Part shown: positions 55,462-64,000 of the stretch, in pieces | Layout of the letters: each line of letters opens with the position of its first letter | How positions within the stretch are numbered: the first letter of the stretch is position 1 | Origin: Brevibacterium sp. S22 | GTDB lineage: Bacteria; Actinomycetota; Actinomycetes; Actinomycetales; Brevibacteriaceae | Reading direction: 5' to 3' | Length of the DNA stretch: 64,000 nucleotides | Assembly: GCF_004745485.1 (NCBI RefSeq) | Contig: NZ_RHFG01000009.1 | Location: 1 to 64,000 of the forward strand | Made by a program: the position numbers and the translations under genes | The notes under the pieces: model-generated | What the model was told of the DNA's origin: nothing | Seen by the model: the letters and a program-made list of their open reading frames with translations, nothing else | The model's database searches: none

Positions 55462-56832
55462 TCAGTCGAAGGACGGCAGGTCGATCTCCTGCGGTCCGGA
55501 ATTGTCGATGGTTGCCAGAATGGTCCGGCGGATGTCCTCGGCCTCACCGAGGTAGGACTCGGGGGTGAAGAAATCCTCGATGCCGTCGTCATCGCTGATC
55601 TCCGCACGCAGTGCGGCTACGGGGTCGGAGCCGGGGGCGATGATGGCTGCGCGGGTGTCCTTGTCCAGTCGGTCACCGAAGACGATCCCGAGTTTCTCGC
55701 CGAAGATCCCGGGGGAGGCGGCGTCGAGGTTCGTGCGCATGGCATCGGCGTTGACCTGCAGGCCCGCGATCATCTCGTCGAGGATGATCAGCGAGGAGAT
55801 CGCCAGGGTCATGAGCTCGGACAGGGCCGGCCATTCGGCGTGCCAGGCACCGTCGGAGCGTTCTTCGACGGCTTCGGCGGCGGTCGTGGTCAGCGTGGAC
55901 AGCGCTCCGGGGACGCGCATTCCGTTGCGATGGAGCAGCACCGCCGAGGTGGGGTTCGATTTGTGCGGCATCGTCGAGGATCCGCCGGTCGAGGCCAGGG
56001 ACAGCTCGCCGATCTCGGGACGGACGCCGATGAGGACGTCGCGGGCGATGGAGGCCCCGACAGTGGTGCATTGGGCGAGGTGTGAGCCCCAGGACATGAT
56101 GCGGACGCGATCGGTGTGCCAGGGGACGGGGATCTGCGTCAGCGCCGCGTCGGGGCCGACCATCTGGACATTGAATTCGCGCAGCAGCGAGTCGGTGGAG
56201 TCGCCGGCGAACCAGCGGATGGCTGCACGCGTGCCGGCGGCCCCGCCGACCTGCACATAGTCGACATAGGGCGCTTGGCCCTGGACTTCATTGACCTCGG
56301 CGGCCCAGGCGGCGACCTTGAGCCCGAACGTCGTCGGCAGCGCCGGTTGGGTCAGCGTCCGGGCCAGGCACAGGGTCTGGGCATGAGCGTCGGAGAGTTC
56401 GACGAGGGAGGCGCCGATGACCTCGAGGCGCGCCTGCATCTGCCTCACGACGCGGGAGACGAGCAGACCGACCGCCGTGTCGATGACGTCCTGGCTGGTC
56501 AGCCCGCGGTGCAGGCATCGTGAGGCTTCGGGGGAGAGCCGGGAGCGGACGAGGGCGAGGAACGGGATGAGCGGGTTGCCCCCGGCTTCGGCCTCCTCGC
56601 CGAGAGTCTGCAGCTGGGTGTGATCGTCCGTGAGCGTGCGGATCGTGGCATCGATGGCGGCGGCCACCTCGGCGCGGGTCTCCGCGGACACCAACCCCAC
56701 CCGGCCCTGTGCGACGATCCACGCGGTCTCGACCTGGCCGATCGCGGTGATGAACGCGGCGTCGTCGATGGCTTCGGACCCGCGCAGATCGCCGGGGGCG
56801 AAGAGGAACCGGGTGTGGGCGGTGTCGGTCAT
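55462..56832 (-). CDS. pcaB: 3-carboxy-cis,cis-muconate cycloisomerase
   Basis: 456-residue member of the fumarase/aspartase superfamily. The signature GGSSTMPHKSNPTSAVLL is present, and RGLTSQDVIDTAVGLL and GGAAGTR support the PcaB assignment. The enzyme cyclises 3-carboxymuconate to 4-carboxymuconolactone. Located between pcaG (5 bases) and pcaL, within the protocatechuate operon. Confidence 0.94.
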   Translation of the reverse strand: MTDTAHTRFLFAPGDLRGSEAIDDAAFITAIGQVETAWIVAQGRVGLVSAETRAEVAAAIDATIRTLTDDHTQLQTLGEEAEAGGNPLIPFLALVRSRLSPEASRCLHRGLTSQDVIDTAVGLLVSRVVRQMQARLEVIGASLVELSDAHAQTLCLARTLTQPALPTTFGLKVAAWAAEVNEVQGQAPYVDYVQVGGAAGTRAAIRWFAGDSTDSLLREFNVQMVGPDAALTQIPVPWHTDRVRIMSWGSHLAQCTTVGASIARDVLIGVRPEIGELSLASTGGSSTMPHKSNPTSAVLLHRNGMRVPGALSTLTTTAAEAVEERSDGAWHAEWPALSELMTLAISSLIILDEMIAGLQVNADAMRTNLDAASPGIFGEKLGIVFGDRLDKDTRAAIIAPGSDPVAALRAEISDDDGIEDFFTPESYLGEAEDIRRTILATIDNSGPQEIDLPSFD

Positions 56833-56837
56833 GTCTC

Positions 56838-57422
56838 TCAGTCCTCGTGGCTGGGGAAACGGAGGAAGGGTGTTTCCTCCTCACCCTGCAACCGTATGTC
56901 GAAGTGCAGCGATCCGTCAGCCCCTCGAGTCGCGACGAGGCGGGCGCGCTCGTCTTCATCGAGCGAGGACAGGAGCGGGTCGGCGGCCAGCGCCTCGGTG
57001 TCCTCGGGCAGGTAGATGCGGGTGAAGAGGCGGTTGAGCAGCCCGCGGGCGAAGATGACGAGGCTGATGAATGGGGCCTTGCCTGCCTCGGTGGGGCCGG
57101 GGTTGACCGTCGAGAAGCTGAACTCGCCTTCGGGGTCGACGGCTGCGCGGCCGAATCCGGTGAAGGTGAAGCCGTTGCGGAGCAGCGAACCCGTCTTCCG
57201 GGGAACCTCGCCGTTCTCATCGGGCTGCCAGATCTCGAGGATCGCATCGGGGACGCGCTCGCCCGCCCCGTCATAGACGGTTCCGGTCAGCTGCACCGCC
57301 CGCGCCGAACCGGGCGGCACGAGCTCATTGTCGTGCTCGTAGGGCATTGCGTAGCCGTAGAAGGGTCCGACGGTCTGCCCCGGCGTGGGGGTGAGGTCGG
57401 TGGTCGGGGTGGTCTCAGTCAT
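56838..57422 (-). CDS. pcaG: Protocatechuate 3,4-dioxygenase alpha subunit
   Basis: 194-residue intradiol dioxygenase alpha chain. It has the TPGQTVGPFYGYAMPY start, VQLTGTVYDGAGERVPDAILEIWQPDENG and GKAPFISLVIFARGLL, matching PcaG. Alpha chains lack the full iron ligand set, which is in PcaH. The ATG at 57422 overlaps the end of pcaH by 8 bases, so the two subunits are translationally coupled. Together they cleave protocatechuate to 3-carboxy-cis,cis-muconate. Confidence 0.94.
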   Translation of the reverse strand: MTETTPTTDLTPTPGQTVGPFYGYAMPYEHDNELVPPGSARAVQLTGTVYDGAGERVPDAILEIWQPDENGEVPRKTGSLLRNGFTFTGFGRAAVDPEGEFSFSTVNPGPTEAGKAPFISLVIFARGLLNRLFTRIYLPEDTEALAADPLLSSLDEDERARLVATRGADGSLHFDIRLQGEEETPFLRFPSHED

Positions 57423-58275
57423 CGTCCTCTTCTTCCATCCAGGTCCGGTTGGCTCCGGTGAGCACGATGTCCCAGTTATAGCCCATGAGGAATTCGTGTT
57501 CGGTGATGTTGTGGTCATAGGTGGCCACCAGCCGGTCGCGCGCTTTCTGGTCGGTGATCGACTGGTAGATCGGGTCGAGAGCGAAGAGCGGATCGCCGGG
57601 GAAGTACATCTGCGTGATCATCCGCTGTGTGAACTCGGATCCGAAGAGCGAGAAGTGGATATGGGCCGGTCGCCATGCGTTGTGGTGGTTCTTCCACGGG
57701 TAGGGGCCCGGCTTGATCGTCGTGAATGAGTAGGACCCGTCGTCGCCGGTCAGGGTACGGCCGACACCGGTGAAGTTCGGGTCGATCGGGGCCGGGTGCT
57801 GGTCGCGTTTGTGGATATAGCGTCCTGCCGAGTTCGCCTGCCAGATCTCGACGAGCTGGCCCCGCACGGGACGACCTTCACCGTCGAGGACCCGGCCGGT
57901 GACGCGGATGCGCTCGCCGATGGGTTCGCCGTCGGCCTGGATGGTCAGATCGGATTCGAGGGTGCCGATGTCCCGGTGCCCGAAGGCGGGGGAGAAGAGC
58001 TCGATCGTCTCTGGGTCGGTGTGGCGCGGATCCTTCGTCGGGTGCCGCAGGATCGAGGACCGGTAGGGCCGGTAGTCCAGGCGCGGCTGGGTCTCGGGCT
58101 TCTTGCCGCCGGCGACGTCCTGCTTGTACTGCGTTTCGATGCTCTCGATCTCCGCCGACAGCGTCGCCTGTGACTCGGCTGCGTCGTCGGGGCCCTTCAC
58201 GGGCTGATCGATGACGGTCGGGGAGGTGAATGCCTCGGCGGACTCGTCAACGTCCGAGTTCTGCTGTGGACTCAT
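57415..58275 (-). CDS. pcaH: Protocatechuate 3,4-dioxygenase beta subunit
   Basis: 286-residue catalytic beta chain with a long N-terminal region. Fe(III) ligands are seen as the Tyr in KPGPYPWKNHHNAWRPAHIH and the two His of HIH in RPAHIHFSLFG; a second Tyr (GRYIHKRDQHP or nearby) lies upstream. The core RVTGRVLDGEGRPVRGQLVEIWQ is the intradiol signature. It forms the holoenzyme with PcaG. Located upstream of pcaG (overlapping) and 55 bases downstream of pobA. Confidence 0.95.
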   Translation of the reverse strand: MSPQQNSDVDESAEAFTSPTVIDQPVKGPDDAAESQATLSAEIESIETQYKQDVAGGKKPETQPRLDYRPYRSSILRHPTKDPRHTDPETIELFSPAFGHRDIGTLESDLTIQADGEPIGERIRVTGRVLDGEGRPVRGQLVEIWQANSAGRYIHKRDQHPAPIDPNFTGVGRTLTGDDGSYSFTTIKPGPYPWKNHHNAWRPAHIHFSLFGSEFTQRMITQMYFPGDPLFALDPIYQSITDQKARDRLVATYDHNITEHEFLMGYNWDIVLTGANRTWMEEEDDD

Positions 58276-58330
58276 CGTCGAACCTTTCTCTCTTCGGTGC
58301 TCATGTTCGTGGGGAGGGTGGGGGAGCGGC

Positions 58331-59515
58331 TCAGCCGTGGGGCCAGCCGGTGTAGCACTCGGCCAGGTAGCGGCGACCGTGGTCGGATTCGAGGATGGAC
58401 CGCAGTTCGCCGAGGCTGCGCTTCGTTTCGAAGGCGTCCTGAGTCGGGTCGGTGTGGAGCATCCGTGTCATCTGGTACGAGAAGTTCTGGGCCTTCCATA
58501 CACGCTTGGTCGCGGTCTGCGAATACCCGGCGAGCGCCTCGGCGTCGGAGTCCTTGAACGCCGTGATGAGAGCGGGGGCGAGCACGGCGACATCGGCGAA
58601 GGCGAGGTTGAGGCCTTTTGCGCCGGTCGGTGGGACCGTGTGGGCGCTGTCGCCGGCGAGGAACATCGACCCGTGCTGCATCGGCTCGGTTACGGCCGAA
58701 CGGAACGGCAGCACGGTCTTGTCGAAAATCGGACCGGTCTTGAGTTCGAAGCCGTCGGGGCCTGCGACGCGGGCCTGGAGCTCGGTCCAGATCCGGTCAT
58801 CGGACCAGTCGGCCACATCGGCGTCGGGGGAGGCCTGGAAGTACATGCGCTGGACGTTCGCGCTGCGTTGGGAGATGAGGGCGAAGCCGCGTTCGGAGCG
58901 GGAGTAGATGAGGACCTCGTGGCTGGGCGGGGCTTCGCAGAGGATGCCGAACCAGGCGAACGGATATTCGTGGAAGAAGCGCTGCCGGGTGCCGTCGGGA
59001 ATCATCGAGCGGCAGGGGCCGCGCGAGCCGTCGGCCCCGACGACGTAGCGGGCGCTGATGCGCAGCTCTTCACCGTCGGCAGAGGTGGCGGTGACCCAGG
59101 GGGCCTCGGTTTCGATATCGCCGAGGCGGGTGTCCGTGACCGAGTAGTAGGTGGGGCGGCCCGTGCGTTCACGGGCGGCGGCGAGGTCGACGAAGATCTC
59201 GTTCTGGGGGTAGAGCCACACGGATTCGCCGACGAGTTCGGGGAAGTCGAAGTGGTTCGAGGCGCCGTTGACTCGAATGTCGATGCCGTCGTGGCGGTGA
59301 CCGTCGATGTGGACGCGGGATTCGACGCCTGCAGCTTCGAGCATGCGCACCGATCCTGCTTCGAGGATTCCGGCGCGGTGTGTGTGGGCGATGTCGTCGC
59401 GGCTGCGGTTGTCGATGACGACGGATTCGATGCCTGCATTGTGCAGCAGGTGCGCGAGCATGAGTCCCGCGGGTCCGGCTCCGACGATCGCCACGTCTGT
59501 CTTCAGTTGTGCCAC
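58331..59515 (-). CDS. pobA: 4-hydroxybenzoate 3-monooxygenase
   Basis: 394-residue FAD/NAD(P)H aromatic hydroxylase converting 4-hydroxybenzoate to protocatechuate. It has the FAD motif VGAGPAGLMLAHLL at the N-terminus, the DG motif region YVVGADGSRGPCR, and GDSAHTVPPTGAKGLNLAFADV near residue 285, all PobA hallmarks. The GTG at 59515 with GGAGG 5 bases upstream is the likely start. Length equals the Pseudomonas enzyme. First gene of the pob-pca operon. Confidence 0.95.
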   Translation of the reverse strand: MAQLKTDVAIVGAGPAGLMLAHLLHNAGIESVVIDNRSRDDIAHTHRAGILEAGSVRMLEAAGVESRVHIDGHRHDGIDIRVNGASNHFDFPELVGESVWLYPQNEIFVDLAAARERTGRPTYYSVTDTRLGDIETEAPWVTATSADGEELRISARYVVGADGSRGPCRSMIPDGTRQRFFHEYPFAWFGILCEAPPSHEVLIYSRSERGFALISQRSANVQRMYFQASPDADVADWSDDRIWTELQARVAGPDGFELKTGPIFDKTVLPFRSAVTEPMQHGSMFLAGDSAHTVPPTGAKGLNLAFADVAVLAPALITAFKDSDAEALAGYSQTATKRVWKAQNFSYQMTRMLHTDPTQDAFETKRSLGELRSILESDHGRRYLAECYTGWPHG

Positions 59516-59674
59516 CTTGGCCTCCTTGCCGTATCTCGTCTCATCAGTGTGCGCCCAGTCACTGAGCCGAAGCGATGGCATTCTCAATGAATAAGAAGTC
59601 GGGCCGAGGGTGGGTGGAGTCCGGCGGCGCGGCTCACCGTGCGAACTCCGTTCAAAGTTACTTTTCGATAACAG

Positions 59675-59790: not shown

Positions 59791-60393
59791 GTGACCGCTT
59801 CCAAGACCCGCTCCCGCAAGTTCAAAGCCATTCTCGCCGGCGGCATCGTCCTCGGTGTCGGCGCGGCAGTGACCCTCGCTGCCTGGACCGACGACGAATG
59901 GGCCGAAGGTGTCTTCGGCGCCGGTTCGTTCAACGTGGAGGGCAGCACCGACGGCTCGAGCTTCACTGATCACGAGAGCGCAGACGGAGCGGCCTCACTG
60001 GACTTCCAGGTCGGCGCGGACAACCTGTCTCCCGGTGACACCGCCGCTGCTCCCTTCGTTCTCCGCCTTGATGACGCGACGAGCTACGACGCTACGGTGG
60101 CGCTCACCTCGGCGGCGGGGTCAGGCGACAACACGGGCGCACTGAGCTACGAGATCGTTCAGGTCGCCTCGGCGGGAGACTGCTCGGCCACCGCCACGGG
60201 TACTTCGATCGTTGACGCCGGCACCGCGCTGAACTCGACGGGCGGCGCTGCGGACTTCGACCTCACCGCGGGTTCGGGCAGCACTGCGGGAGCTCCGGTG
60301 ACGCTGTGCTTCAAGGTCACCGCGGGTGATGATCTCGAGCAGGGTCAGAACACCATGGCGCAGTGGCAGTTCACCGCAACCTCGGCCGAATGA
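59791..60393 (+). CDS. SipW-type signal peptide protein (TasA/camelysin-like), 1
   Basis: 200-residue secreted protein. The N-terminus is RKFKAILAGGIVLGVGAA, ending in AAWTDDEWAEG, the hallmark of substrates of SipW-type signal peptidases. The mature chain is rich in Ala, Gly, Ser, Thr and Asp with few charges and no Lys after the signal, and ends NTMAQWQFTATSAE; beta-rich fibre-type domains (TasA-like) have this look. GTG start with AAGGAG upstream. First gene of a four-gene operon with a second similar protein and the signal peptidase. Fibre or matrix function is inferred. Confidence 0.83.
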   Translation: MTASKTRSRKFKAILAGGIVLGVGAAVTLAAWTDDEWAEGVFGAGSFNVEGSTDGSSFTDHESADGAASLDFQVGADNLSPGDTAAAPFVLRLDDATSYDATVALTSAAGSGDNTGALSYEIVQVASAGDCSATATGTSIVDAGTALNSTGGAADFDLTAGSGSTAGAPVTLCFKVTAGDDLEQGQNTMAQWQFTATSAE

Positions 60394-60410: not shown

Positions 60411-61109
60411 ATGCACCTTTCCTCGTTGCGGCTGCGGAATCTCTTCTCAGGCGGGCGGGCACCGTCGAGTGACCGCCCGCTGAGTCGACGGCAGATGCGA
60501 CAGCGGCGTCGGCTGCGCAATCGACGTATCAAAGCGATTCTCGCCGGTGGGCTGGTTTTCGGTGTGGGCGCGACGGCGACGGTCGCGGCGTGGACGGATA
60601 CGGAAGAGGCCTCCGGCTCGTTCGAAGCCGGGAGGTTCAATATCGAACTGTCTGTCGACGGGTCGGACTGGACGAACACCAGCACGATGACCTTCGACGC
60701 AGGCAGCATGTATCCGGGGCAGAAGGTCTATGCCCCGGTGTTCGTCCGGACTACGTCGACCACGTCGATCGGCGGCGAGGTCACCGTGTCGGGCGGCGGA
60801 ATACAGAATCCGAACGCCTTTGCCTCTGCGCTCACCTATCGAGCTGTGGCGCGGACTTCGTCCGGTACCGGGTGTGATGCGAACAGTTTCCCCGGTCCGG
60901 GCACCGTCATCTTCGGTGAGGACGGCGGGGTCGCCCTGAGCAGCAGACCGACTGCGGCGGCAAGTCAGGAACTTGAGTCTGCGGGTGCTGCCGTTCAGGC
61001 CTACTGCTTCGAGGTGACGCTGCCGACGAACGCGCCGAACGAGGCTCAGGGACTGTCGACGTCTCACACCTGGACCTTCACCGCCGAATCCACGACTCCA
61101 GGATCGTGA
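60411..61109 (+). CDS. SipW-type signal peptide protein, 2
   Basis: 232-residue secreted protein with a long, very basic N-terminus (RRQMRQRRRLRNRRIKAIL), then AGGLVFGVGATATVAAWTDTEEASGSFEAG, again the SipW signal pattern. The mature portion has two Cys (GCDANSFP and YCFEVTLP) and ends with SHTWTFTAESTTPGS, similar in layout to the first protein, so the two are paralogues. It follows the first gene by 17 bases and precedes the signal peptidase by 3. The basic start may aid targeting. Confidence 0.82.
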   Translation: MHLSSLRLRNLFSGGRAPSSDRPLSRRQMRQRRRLRNRRIKAILAGGLVFGVGATATVAAWTDTEEASGSFEAGRFNIELSVDGSDWTNTSTMTFDAGSMYPGQKVYAPVFVRTTSTTSIGGEVTVSGGGIQNPNAFASALTYRAVARTSSGTGCDANSFPGPGTVIFGEDGGVALSSRPTAAASQELESAGAAVQAYCFEVTLPTNAPNEAQGLSTSHTWTFTAESTTPGS

Positions 61110-61112
61110 ACG

Positions 61113-62495
61113 ATGAGCCGTAGTTCATCGAACGGGTCGGGCATCGGTGCCTGGCTGGGTGCTGCCCTGCTCAATGTGCTCGCCGTTCTCGGCGTGGTGT
61201 GCATCGTCCTCGTCATCCTCGGTGTGGTCTTCAATGTCTCAATCATGATGTTCAAGACCGGATCGATGAGTCCGACGATTCCGGCGGGTTCGGCCGCTCT
61301 CGTTCGGGAGATCCCTGCCGAGGACATGAAGGTCGGCGACATCGTCACCGTCGACCGCGGAGACAAGGTTCTGCCGGTGACGCACCGCGTCATCGACATC
61401 CAAACGACCGACCCTTCCACCGGTGCCGTGACCTTCGACATGAAGGGTGACGCGAACGCGGAGAAGGACCCCGATCCTTACACCACGGAAACGGTGCGGA
61501 AGGTGATGTTCTCTGTCCCTGGAATCGCGCCGATCCTCCAGCAGTGGCGCAACCCGTTCCTGCTCGGCGGCATCACGATCGCGGCGAGCCTCCTCGTCGT
61601 GTGGGCGTTCTGGCCGCGCCGCGGCGATGATCTGGACGAGAGTGACGAGTCATCGGCAAACGCCGCACGTACCGAGGTTGATCGATTGCGAACTGCTGCG
61701 CGCTCGCCCAAGCATGCCGTGGCGGCTCCGATCATCGCCGCTATGTTGCTCGGCGGAGGAGTCGCAGGAGAAGATCTCGGAGTCGACACGACTGCCAGTG
61801 GAGGCGCGGGAGCTGCCTCGAACCAGTCCTCGTCGGAGGTTCACGGTCAGTATCTGCGTTTGAGGGCGTTCGGCGACGATAAAAGGATGCTCGGTCTCAG
61901 CCCGGGAGCATCGGCGAATTGGACCGTCGATGTGTGGGTCGAGGACGCTGATCCCGGCACGGTCGACCTCGAGATCGGTGCGGGGCAGGTGACTGAGCCG
62001 CTCGCCTCGGCGCTGGTCGTCGATGTGCGCAGCTGTGATCGGACCGCGATCGACGAAGGCTGTCCAGCGGGTTCACACAGCTTGCTGAGCGGGATGCCCT
62101 TGACCGACTTGGGGCGTGCGCCGGACGGAAACAGAGTCCTCGAAGAAATGCCGAGTGAAGACGAACGGCGCATCGATGTCACCGTCTCGCTGCTGCCCGA
62201 CGCCGATGTGAAGAAGGTCAACGGGCAAACGAGCAGTGTCCGGATCACCGCGCTGGGCCAGGGCGAGGAGCTCTCTGTGGGCCCAGGTGACCCTGGGCCA
62301 GGCGATCCGGGTGAAGCCGACGCCGGCTCCAACGGATCAGGCTCAGATGATCCTGGTGCGGAAGGGCCTGGCGGGTCGGGAGAACTGCCGTGGACCGGCA
62401 TCGACGGATGGCAGTGGTTCCTGCTGGCCGCGTTCGTGCTCATCGTTGTGGGATCGGCCGTGGTCTCGAGGACGCGGAGGGCGCGACAGTCATGA
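61113..62495 (+). CDS. ER-type (SipW-like) signal peptidase fused to an LPXTG-anchored ectodomain
   Basis: 460-residue protein. TM1 (about residues 16-46) precedes the peptidase core: nucleophile Ser51 in TGSMSPTIPAG, and His91 in VTHRVIDI in place of the Lys of bacterial SPase I, as in SipW/Sec11 enzymes; KGDANAEKD (about 111-119) supplies acidic residues. TM2 is about 149-168. A second part follows: an acidic/basic cytosolic linker, a third hydrophobic segment (about 203-220), an ectodomain (about 221-424) with two Cys, a Gly/Pro/Asp-rich linker, then LPWTG (425-429), a helix and the basic tail RTRRARQS, a sortase sorting signal. SipW enzymes are normally about 190 residues. It probably processes the flanking cargo proteins and attaches its own ectodomain to the wall. 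Confidence 0.82.
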   Translation: MSRSSSNGSGIGAWLGAALLNVLAVLGVVCIVLVILGVVFNVSIMMFKTGSMSPTIPAGSAALVREIPAEDMKVGDIVTVDRGDKVLPVTHRVIDIQTTDPSTGAVTFDMKGDANAEKDPDPYTTETVRKVMFSVPGIAPILQQWRNPFLLGGITIAASLLVVWAFWPRRGDDLDESDESSANAARTEVDRLRTAARSPKHAVAAPIIAAMLLGGGVAGEDLGVDTTASGGAGAASNQSSSEVHGQYLRLRAFGDDKRMLGLSPGASANWTVDVWVEDADPGTVDLEIGAGQVTEPLASALVVDVRSCDRTAIDEGCPAGSHSLLSGMPLTDLGRAPDGNRVLEEMPSEDERRIDVTVSLLPDADVKKVNGQTSSVRITALGQGEELSVGPGDPGPGDPGEADAGSNGSGSDDPGAEGPGGSGELPWTGIDGWQWFLLAAFVLIVVGSAVVSRTRRARQS

Positions 62496-62992
62496 CTCAT
62501 ATCTTCGTGTGGAAGCGAATCCGCGTCCTGCTCGCCATAGTCGCACTGTTGGCGCTCGTCCTCGTGCCTTCGGTGGTCAACGGGACCCTCGCCGGGTGGA
62601 ACGATGACAAATCGAGTACCGGGGAGTTCACCGCCGGGTCGCTCAATATCAGCAATCTGACATGTACGGACAACAGCGGTCTGCTCGGGCTCGGCGGGGA
62701 CCAGCTGAAACTGGATTGGACAAAGCCTGCGAACTCCGGGTCCACGCAGCTCCAATACACTGTCACAGTGGTAAGGACGCCATTGATCGGTTCGGCCGAG
62801 ACGACAACTCACATCACCGAGAGCACCACTTACACATATACCGACAAGCGTCTGACACTGGTTTCTCTGCCGCGGTACTCATTGACGGTCCAAGCGAACC
62901 CTGTAGGTGGTTGGACCGGGGCCGCCCAAACCGTGAACGGGCGCGGGGCGAATCTGCTGGGTATCGGATTGGTTCTGCGCTGCAGATCGTGA
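62492..62992 (+). CDS. SipW-type signal peptide protein, 3
   Basis: 166-residue secreted protein starting at ATG 62492, which overlaps the signal peptidase stop (ATGA). The signal is WKRIRVLLAIVALLALVL, with LAGWNDDKSSTGEFTAG around the cleavage region. The mature part has Thr-rich beta-type sequence (VTVVRTPLIG, TESTTYTYTD) and two Cys (LTCTDN and LRCRS). It is less similar to proteins 1 and 2 than they are to each other, and lacks an LPXTG motif, so it may be a minor fibre subunit or tip. Confidence 0.8.
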   Translation: MTHIFVWKRIRVLLAIVALLALVLVPSVVNGTLAGWNDDKSSTGEFTAGSLNISNLTCTDNSGLLGLGGDQLKLDWTKPANSGSTQLQYTVTVVRTPLIGSAETTTHITESTTYTYTDKRLTLVSLPRYSLTVQANPVGGWTGAAQTVNGRGANLLGIGLVLRCRS

Positions 62993-63088: not shown

Positions 63089-63925
63089 TCACGGAGCCGG
63101 ATTGATCACCCGTCCCCAGGTGGACTTGTTGCCCCAGACGTTCTGGCGCAGGCCCTCGAGCTGAAGAATCTGCGAGTGGTCGACGAACAGGTTGCATTCG
63201 TTTCCGTAGTTCTTGATGTACCACTCGAAGACCGGTCCGTCGGCGGCTTCGAACATGACGTTCTCCAGCCCCAGCCCGTTGATGATCGAGGCGGCCGCGG
63301 CGGTGTTCCACTCATCCACGTTCTCCGTGATGCCTTCGGACTCGATCATGATGATCGAAGCTCCGGCATCCAGGGCTCGCCTGCCGCGGTCGACGAGGTC
63401 GCCGATGTCCTTCGCGGACTCCGCTGCCAGCTCGGCCTCACCGGAGTCTCCGCCGGAACCGATCTGGATGCCCAGCTCGGGCTTCGCCTTGAGCCCGGCC
63501 TTGACGACCTTCTCCACCAGGCGCTCGAGCCCCGAGGTCGGCAGCATGATGAACCCGGTCGAGATTTCGATGACGTCGAAGCCGACCTCCTTGGCCTCCT
63601 TGAGGTACTGGTCGACCGCGTCGTCTCCGTAGCGCAGGACCGTTTCGATCCAGCCGCCCGACGACACGTACGCGTCGTTCTCGTGGGCGATGTCGCTCAT
63701 CGCCTTGACCTGCTCGGGAGGCACGAGCGAGAAGGACCCACCCGCCCACTTGATGCCGTCGACCCATTGCCCGGCGACGTCGAAGACGTCCTGGAGGTGA
63801 CGGGTGCCGAAGGTCGAATAGTACGGTGCGCGGATCTCGGTCATCCCGATGGTGCGGGGCTTGGCCGGGCGGTAGGCGCGGGGGACGAAGTTCATGGACA
63901 CATCGAAATCGATGGCGTTCGACAT
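63089..63925 (-). CDS. Phosphosulfolactate synthase-like protein (ComA family)
   Basis: 278-residue TIM-barrel protein matching the ComA family: KPRTIGMTEIRAPYYSTFG at the start, DVAGQWVDGIKWAGGSFSL, VIEISTGFIMLP and IMIESEGITENV, MFEAADGPVFEWYIKNYG. In archaea and Bacillus the enzyme adds sulfite to phosphoenolpyruvate to form phosphosulfolactate. No coenzyme M or sulfolactate genes are visible in the window, so the physiological role is open. The ATG at 63925 has GAAAGGAAAG upstream. Convergent with the SipW operon, separated by a terminator. Confidence 0.87.
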   Translation of the reverse strand: MSNAIDFDVSMNFVPRAYRPAKPRTIGMTEIRAPYYSTFGTRHLQDVFDVAGQWVDGIKWAGGSFSLVPPEQVKAMSDIAHENDAYVSSGGWIETVLRYGDDAVDQYLKEAKEVGFDVIEISTGFIMLPTSGLERLVEKVVKAGLKAKPELGIQIGSGGDSGEAELAAESAKDIGDLVDRGRRALDAGASIIMIESEGITENVDEWNTAAAASIINGLGLENVMFEAADGPVFEWYIKNYGNECNLFVDHSQILQLEGLRQNVWGNKSTWGRVINPAP

Positions 63926-63944
63926 GGTCTTTCCTTTCTTCGAA

Positions 63945-64000
63945 TGCCGACGATTCGTCGGCGAGGGTGCCGACATCGCGTCGGCAGGGGTGCCGGGATC
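63945..64000. repeat. Tandem 23-bp repeats with hairpins upstream of the ComA-like gene
   Basis: Two full 23-base units (63945-63967 and 63968-63990) and a third that runs off the window share TGCCGAC...GTCGGC...GGG. Each unit has a small hairpin (GCCGACGA/TCGTCGGC in the first). They sit just upstream of the gene start, so they may be an operator array; they may continue beyond the window. Confidence 0.6.

Follow-up and report, generated by a model that had tools for sequence, protein, structure and literature searches.

A SipW-type signal peptidase and a candidate TasA-like wall anchor encoded in one reading frame in Brevibacterium and other Micrococcales

The window, a 64,000-nt stretch of Brevibacterium sp. 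S22 DNA, contains on its forward strand an operon in which one open reading frame (61113-62495, +, 460 aa) encodes a SipW-type signal peptidase, a TasA-like ectodomain and an LPWTG sorting signal. As the earlier note had claimed, this is a single frame without an internal stop; its ATG start lies 3 nt past the stop of the preceding gene. The two genes directly upstream (59791-60393 and 60411-61109, both +, 17 nt apart) encode TasA-like proteins with SipW-dependent-type signal peptides, which are likely substrates of the peptidase. They scored 35.7 and 36.4 bits, respectively, against TIGR04088 (cut-off 19 bits), and in a genome-wide profile search they were the only proteins above that cut-off. 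Substrate-like ORFs were present at nearly every locus encoding the ectodomain. Downstream, the start of a gene for a third small exported protein (62492-62992, +), with a SipW-type signal below the cut-off, overlaps the stop of the fusion (ATGA); this protein showed a weak fibronectin-III match, evolves fast and was found at most Brevibacterium loci. By eye, the region at 55462-59587 (−) resembles a cluster for aromatic-acid (protocatechuate/4-hydroxybenzoate) degradation unrelated to the fusion, and the downstream neighbour at 63089-63976 (−) resembles a phosphosulfolactate synthase-type protein.

Residues 1-170 matched the S26B signal peptidase I profile TIGR02228 with 63.7 bits against a curated cut-off of 51.85, bearing out the earlier assignment of this part to a SipW/Sec11-like peptidase. 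The proposed catalytic residues Ser51 (GSMSPT, 61263-61265) and His91 (VTHR, 61383-61385) were found at the positions claimed and were invariant, together with Asp113 and Asp119 (GDAN..KDP, 61449-61469), in an alignment of 27 homologues. The pair is of the Ser-His kind characteristic of SipW and ER-type enzymes and not Ser-Lys, and the two aspartates probably correspond to the acidic residues characteristic of SipW/Sec11 enzymes. The equivalog cut-off of NF046067, which defines SipW in the Bacillus sense, was not reached by the fusion (43.6 versus 190 bits). Two membrane spans were recognised, TM1 at about residues 14-40 (61152-61232; helix 11-40 in the AF2 model) and TM2 at about residues 147-166 (61551-61610; AF2 helix 148-166), the latter being followed by PRR and marked by a conserved WAFWPR. 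The domain, the catalytic pair and the two spans are common to Sec11/SipW-type peptidases (S26B, TIGR02228), from which the Brevibacterium fusion differs by about 260 additional residues comprising an internal signal, the ectodomain and the sorting tail.

The additional part begins with an acidic linker, predicted to be cytosolic and variable in length among homologues (61623-61700), and continues with a signal-sequence-like segment, RSPKHAVAAPIIAAMLLGGGVA (about residues 197-218, 61701-61766), that has a possible cleavage box, GVA↓G. A spacer separates this segment from the ectodomain (residues 238-390, 61824-62282), an Ig/jelly-roll-like beta sandwich that is joined by a Gly/Pro/Asp-rich stalk (62283-62384; pLDDT < 50) to the LPWTG motif (residues 425-429, 62385-62399) and then to a hydrophobic span and a basic tail (RTRRARQS; 62406-62492). 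The charge pattern fits a topology in which the N-terminus would be inside, the catalytic domain outside, the linker inside, the ectodomain outside and the tail inside.

To place the ectodomain, we combined structure prediction with profile comparison. Foldseek with the full-length model returned mixed-domain alignments with poor superposition, and the ectodomain was therefore modelled alone, which yielded a confident beta sandwich (pLDDT 90.5, pTM 0.86); its Cys308 and Cys317 are invariant among homologues. Against the PDB, the TasA fibre structure 8aur was the second-best match (E 6e-4), with a query TM-score of 0.52 that was the highest among the matches listed. Fibrinogen-binding MSCRAMM domains and the basal pilin EbpB also appeared, so that the modelled fold alone is not specific, falling in a broad beta-sandwich class that takes in adhesins and basal pilins. 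These matches would be expected if the ectodomain were an unrelated wall protein of the adhesin kind, with no tie to its neighbours beyond a common operon, a reading we consider improbable, since profile comparison and intermediate sequences tie the ectodomain to the SipW substrates and since it adjoins the peptidase and substrates at nearly all loci. Compared directly, the ectodomain and substrate profiles gave a score of 33.4 (E 7e-5, probability 64%); block shuffling, repeated 200 times, produced no score above 24.3, and reversing one of the two sides gave 12-14. A narrow, phylum-wide ectodomain profile matched only in Micrococcales, and a broader one reached distant SipW-type substrates in other orders; at four loci (L148, L149, L150 and L155) the ectodomain and substrate profiles each matched the same stretch of a single ORF. 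No match to Pfam PF12389 (TasA-like/camelysin) was found in the fusion, and no significant relative came up when the ectodomain profile was searched against PDB sequences. We take the ectodomain to be a divergent TasA-like domain homologous to the SipW substrates, the similarity being weak in direct comparison and bridged by intermediates.

The C-terminal sorting signal noticed earlier, LPWTG followed by a hydrophobic helix and a basic tail, was upheld by comparison, as LP[WRP]TG was present in all 27 aligned homologues. The tail scored 16.6 bits against TIGR01167 in the genome search (cut-off 15.9) and 11.4 bits, below the cut-off, in a single-protein scan. LPXTG or LAXTG with a hydrophobic span and a basic tail ended 35 of 38 ectodomain proteins, fused or separate, and none of the 162 substrate ORFs carried a convincing sorting tail, eight motif matches among them having no hydrophobic span behind the motif. 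The ectodomain protein is by these features the only member of the loci predicted to be sortase-tagged. One sortase was detected in the genome, of class E (G000:C25:249665-250060, L107), and the fusion, with its motif, hydrophobic span and basic tail, has the sequence pattern of a sortase substrate. Class E sortases are usually linked with LAXTG signals. The other sorting signals of this genome (L111-L127) are almost all LPRTG, as are those of many orthologues of the fusion, set against a lone class E sortase; in family f11, related fusions have LARTG in its place.

The earlier note had proposed a database search for the same architecture, and this search succeeded: of 57 Brevibacterium genomes searched, 24 had a full-length fusion, that of the window among them. 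Sorting of the loci into fused and split forms with the ectodomain and peptidase profiles placed fused forms outside the genus in Microbacterium and in families f6, f11, f13 and f19; the fusion extends to no fewer than four Micrococcales families besides that of Brevibacterium. Named relatives were Brevibacterium species and some Microbacterium, and ectodomain profile matches occurred in many Micrococcales genomes. A sequencing or assembly error merging two genes, an idea to which the existence of a two-gene form in relatives lends some colour, was ruled out as vanishingly improbable, the same fusion occurring in 24 separate Brevibacterium genomes and again in other families. When two pairs of species were compared, variation was greatest at third codon positions in every segment, the linker and stalk included, and the linker varied from 17 to 57 aa among homologues with the reading frame preserved.

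Two arrangements of the separate genes were found. The peptidase came first at 12 loci, and at 10 of these an ATG or GTG start overlapped the peptidase stop by 4 nt (ATGA or GTGA) and was followed by a signal peptide. In Microbacterium resistens (L039), the second gene starts inside the peptidase stop with a 4-nt overlap and encodes a protein in which a classical signal peptide (APALA↓ATT) accompanies the same ectodomain and an LPPTG motif. The ectodomain came first in family f13 and at one weaker locus (L090). At six f13 loci (L078, L079, L081, L082, L084 and L106), the gene for the wall-tagged ectodomain lies before that of the peptidase at a distance of about 500 nt. A tree of the peptidases required at least four changes between the fused and split states, and a single clade of fused forms was rejected (AU p 5e-62), from which we conclude that fusion or fission has recurred. 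A single frameshift could fuse overlapping frames one base apart, and this would account for the repeated changes. The same ease of fusion, together with the interleaving of both states on the tree, is what would be expected from neutral tinkering, in which the two products always separate and act like those of the two-gene form, with co-translation as their sole functional link. We regard this as possible but doubtful; the fused homologues within the genus are 44-82% identical to the window protein, so that the form has been retained down to 44% identity, and it recurs in several families.

Whether the two halves part company depends on the internal segment. The hydrophobic segment that the earlier note placed near residue 203 and read as an internal signal sequence was present between the domains in all fused proteins as a stretch of 12-23 residues, mostly preceded by basic residues (RSPKHA in the window). 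The two-gene loci support this reading, as the segment is the counterpart of the cleavable Sec signal peptide on the stand-alone ectodomain gene. Neither TIGR04088 nor a SipW-type signal motif was found anywhere in the fusion, the internal segment included, and the signal is Sec-like, which makes a housekeeping signal peptidase the likelier cutter; two other signal peptidases are encoded elsewhere in the genome. Separate initiation of the second half from a start codon within the frame was considered and rejected: in-frame ATG, GTG and TTG codons exist, but no position with an RBS-like motif was common to the homologues, and a TTG codon in the window's linker with GAGG 8 nt upstream had no counterpart among them.

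An AxA box followed the signal in all nine split genes and in 14 of the 15 fused proteins outside Brevibacterium, an enrichment that is modest because these regions are alanine-rich and the expected values correspondingly high. Within Brevibacterium the box was found in 14 of 24 proteins versus about 19 expected from shuffled c-regions, and a single group of similar sequences accounted for most of the deficit. Its retention outside the genus and its absence from 10 of 24 proteins within it suggested that release of the ectodomain is likely the ancestral state, the halves probably separating outside Brevibacterium, and left release uncertain for the window's own protein. The missing boxes, and a segment start (RSP[KR]HA.ALP) conserved unusually well for a signal peptide, would suit an uncleaved signal anchor in Brevibacterium, in which case a single chain would persist and the sortase would attach a membrane-bound peptidase to the wall and so confine processing to the base of the fibre. 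We hold this to be somewhat unlikely: the hydrophobic stretch in Brevibacterium is short (13-17 residues) and more like that of a signal peptide, the window sequence still offers GVA↓G, and the relatives and the two-gene form point to release as the ancestral condition. Rather unlikely, too, is the further proposal that the Brevibacterium peptidase, its internal signal no longer being cut, is covalently tethered to the wall by sortase through a copy of its substrates' fold and so forms a fixed membrane-to-wall station that would both trim and launch the subunits.

Taken together, we favour as moderately probable a combined reading in which the window ORF represents a natural fusion, in frame, of two genes that normally overlap within a Micrococcales SipW/TasA-type fibre module, with the peptidase and the wall anchor made as one polyprotein. 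The N-terminal half would be an active SipW-type peptidase that trims the TasA-like proteins encoded at 59791-60393 and 60411-61109, and perhaps that at 62492-62992, and the C-terminal half, a TasA-like sandwich with a sorting signal, would be the wall-anchored member of the module. Translation would yield peptidase and anchor in equal amounts (1:1) at a single site in the membrane, and what was once the anchor's signal peptide would, from its internal position, lead the second half out of the cell. A housekeeping signal peptidase would probably cut at this signal, the single class E sortase would join the ectodomain to the wall, and the trimmed subunits would then assemble on the anchor, which by analogy with the role proposed for TapA in Bacillus would most likely act as their base or starter. 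Counting against this reading, the module also occurs with a peptidase and no ectodomain, in two Brevibacterium loci (L025 and L026) and one of Salinibacterium (L042). At L025 and L026, the gene after the peptidase resembles that of the third small exported protein.

The earlier note had also held that a signal peptidase that is itself wall-linked, or that releases its own tail for anchoring, is not a standard arrangement, and comparison with known systems supported this view. FbcH of Bradyrhizobium is a cytochrome b/c1 precursor with an internal signal sequence at which signal peptidase cuts to give two mature proteins; it shares with the fusion the internal-signal polyprotein design and differs in that its parts are unrelated proteins, whereas one half of the Brevibacterium protein is itself a signal peptidase. 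In the tapA-sipW-tasA operon of B. subtilis, a SipW-type peptidase likewise stands beside TasA-like substrates and an accessory gene overlaps the peptidase gene, tapA overlapping sipW, with TapA proposed to anchor the TasA fibres and to start their formation (PMC10151520, PMC9674648). The TasA-like accessory protein of Brevibacterium differs in being encoded downstream, equipped with a sortase signal and a Sec-type instead of a SipW-type signal, and fused to the peptidase. The likeness of TapA to the ectodomain is proposed at the level of function only. The sipW-calY genes of Bacillus cereus and sipW-bsaA of Clostridium perfringens also combine a dedicated SipW with at least one TasA-like or secreted fibre protein but, unlike those of Brevibacterium, show no fusion. 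BsaA of C. perfringens has no LPXTG, its polymers are mostly extracellular and a nearby sortase is not needed (PMC7395162), indicating that a SipW-dependent fibre can form without a sortase. We found no description of the fusion architecture in the open-access literature, most subscription papers lying outside this coverage, and nothing useful there on FbcH-type precedents or on SipW in actinobacteria.

The genomes compared show a SipW/TasA-like module whose sortase-tagged, TasA-like candidate anchor is repeatedly found in one chain with the peptidase. Modules of the SipW/TasA type that have their own peptidase prove to be widespread in Micrococcales, and the fusion represents a bacterial polyprotein that recurs and whose second signal sequence lies within the chain. 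The module thereby gains a candidate wall anchor in the form of a sortase-tagged relative of the fibre subunits. The attachment of TasA-like fibres is only partly understood in Bacillus, and in these bacteria the candidate anchor can be recognised by its sorting tag.
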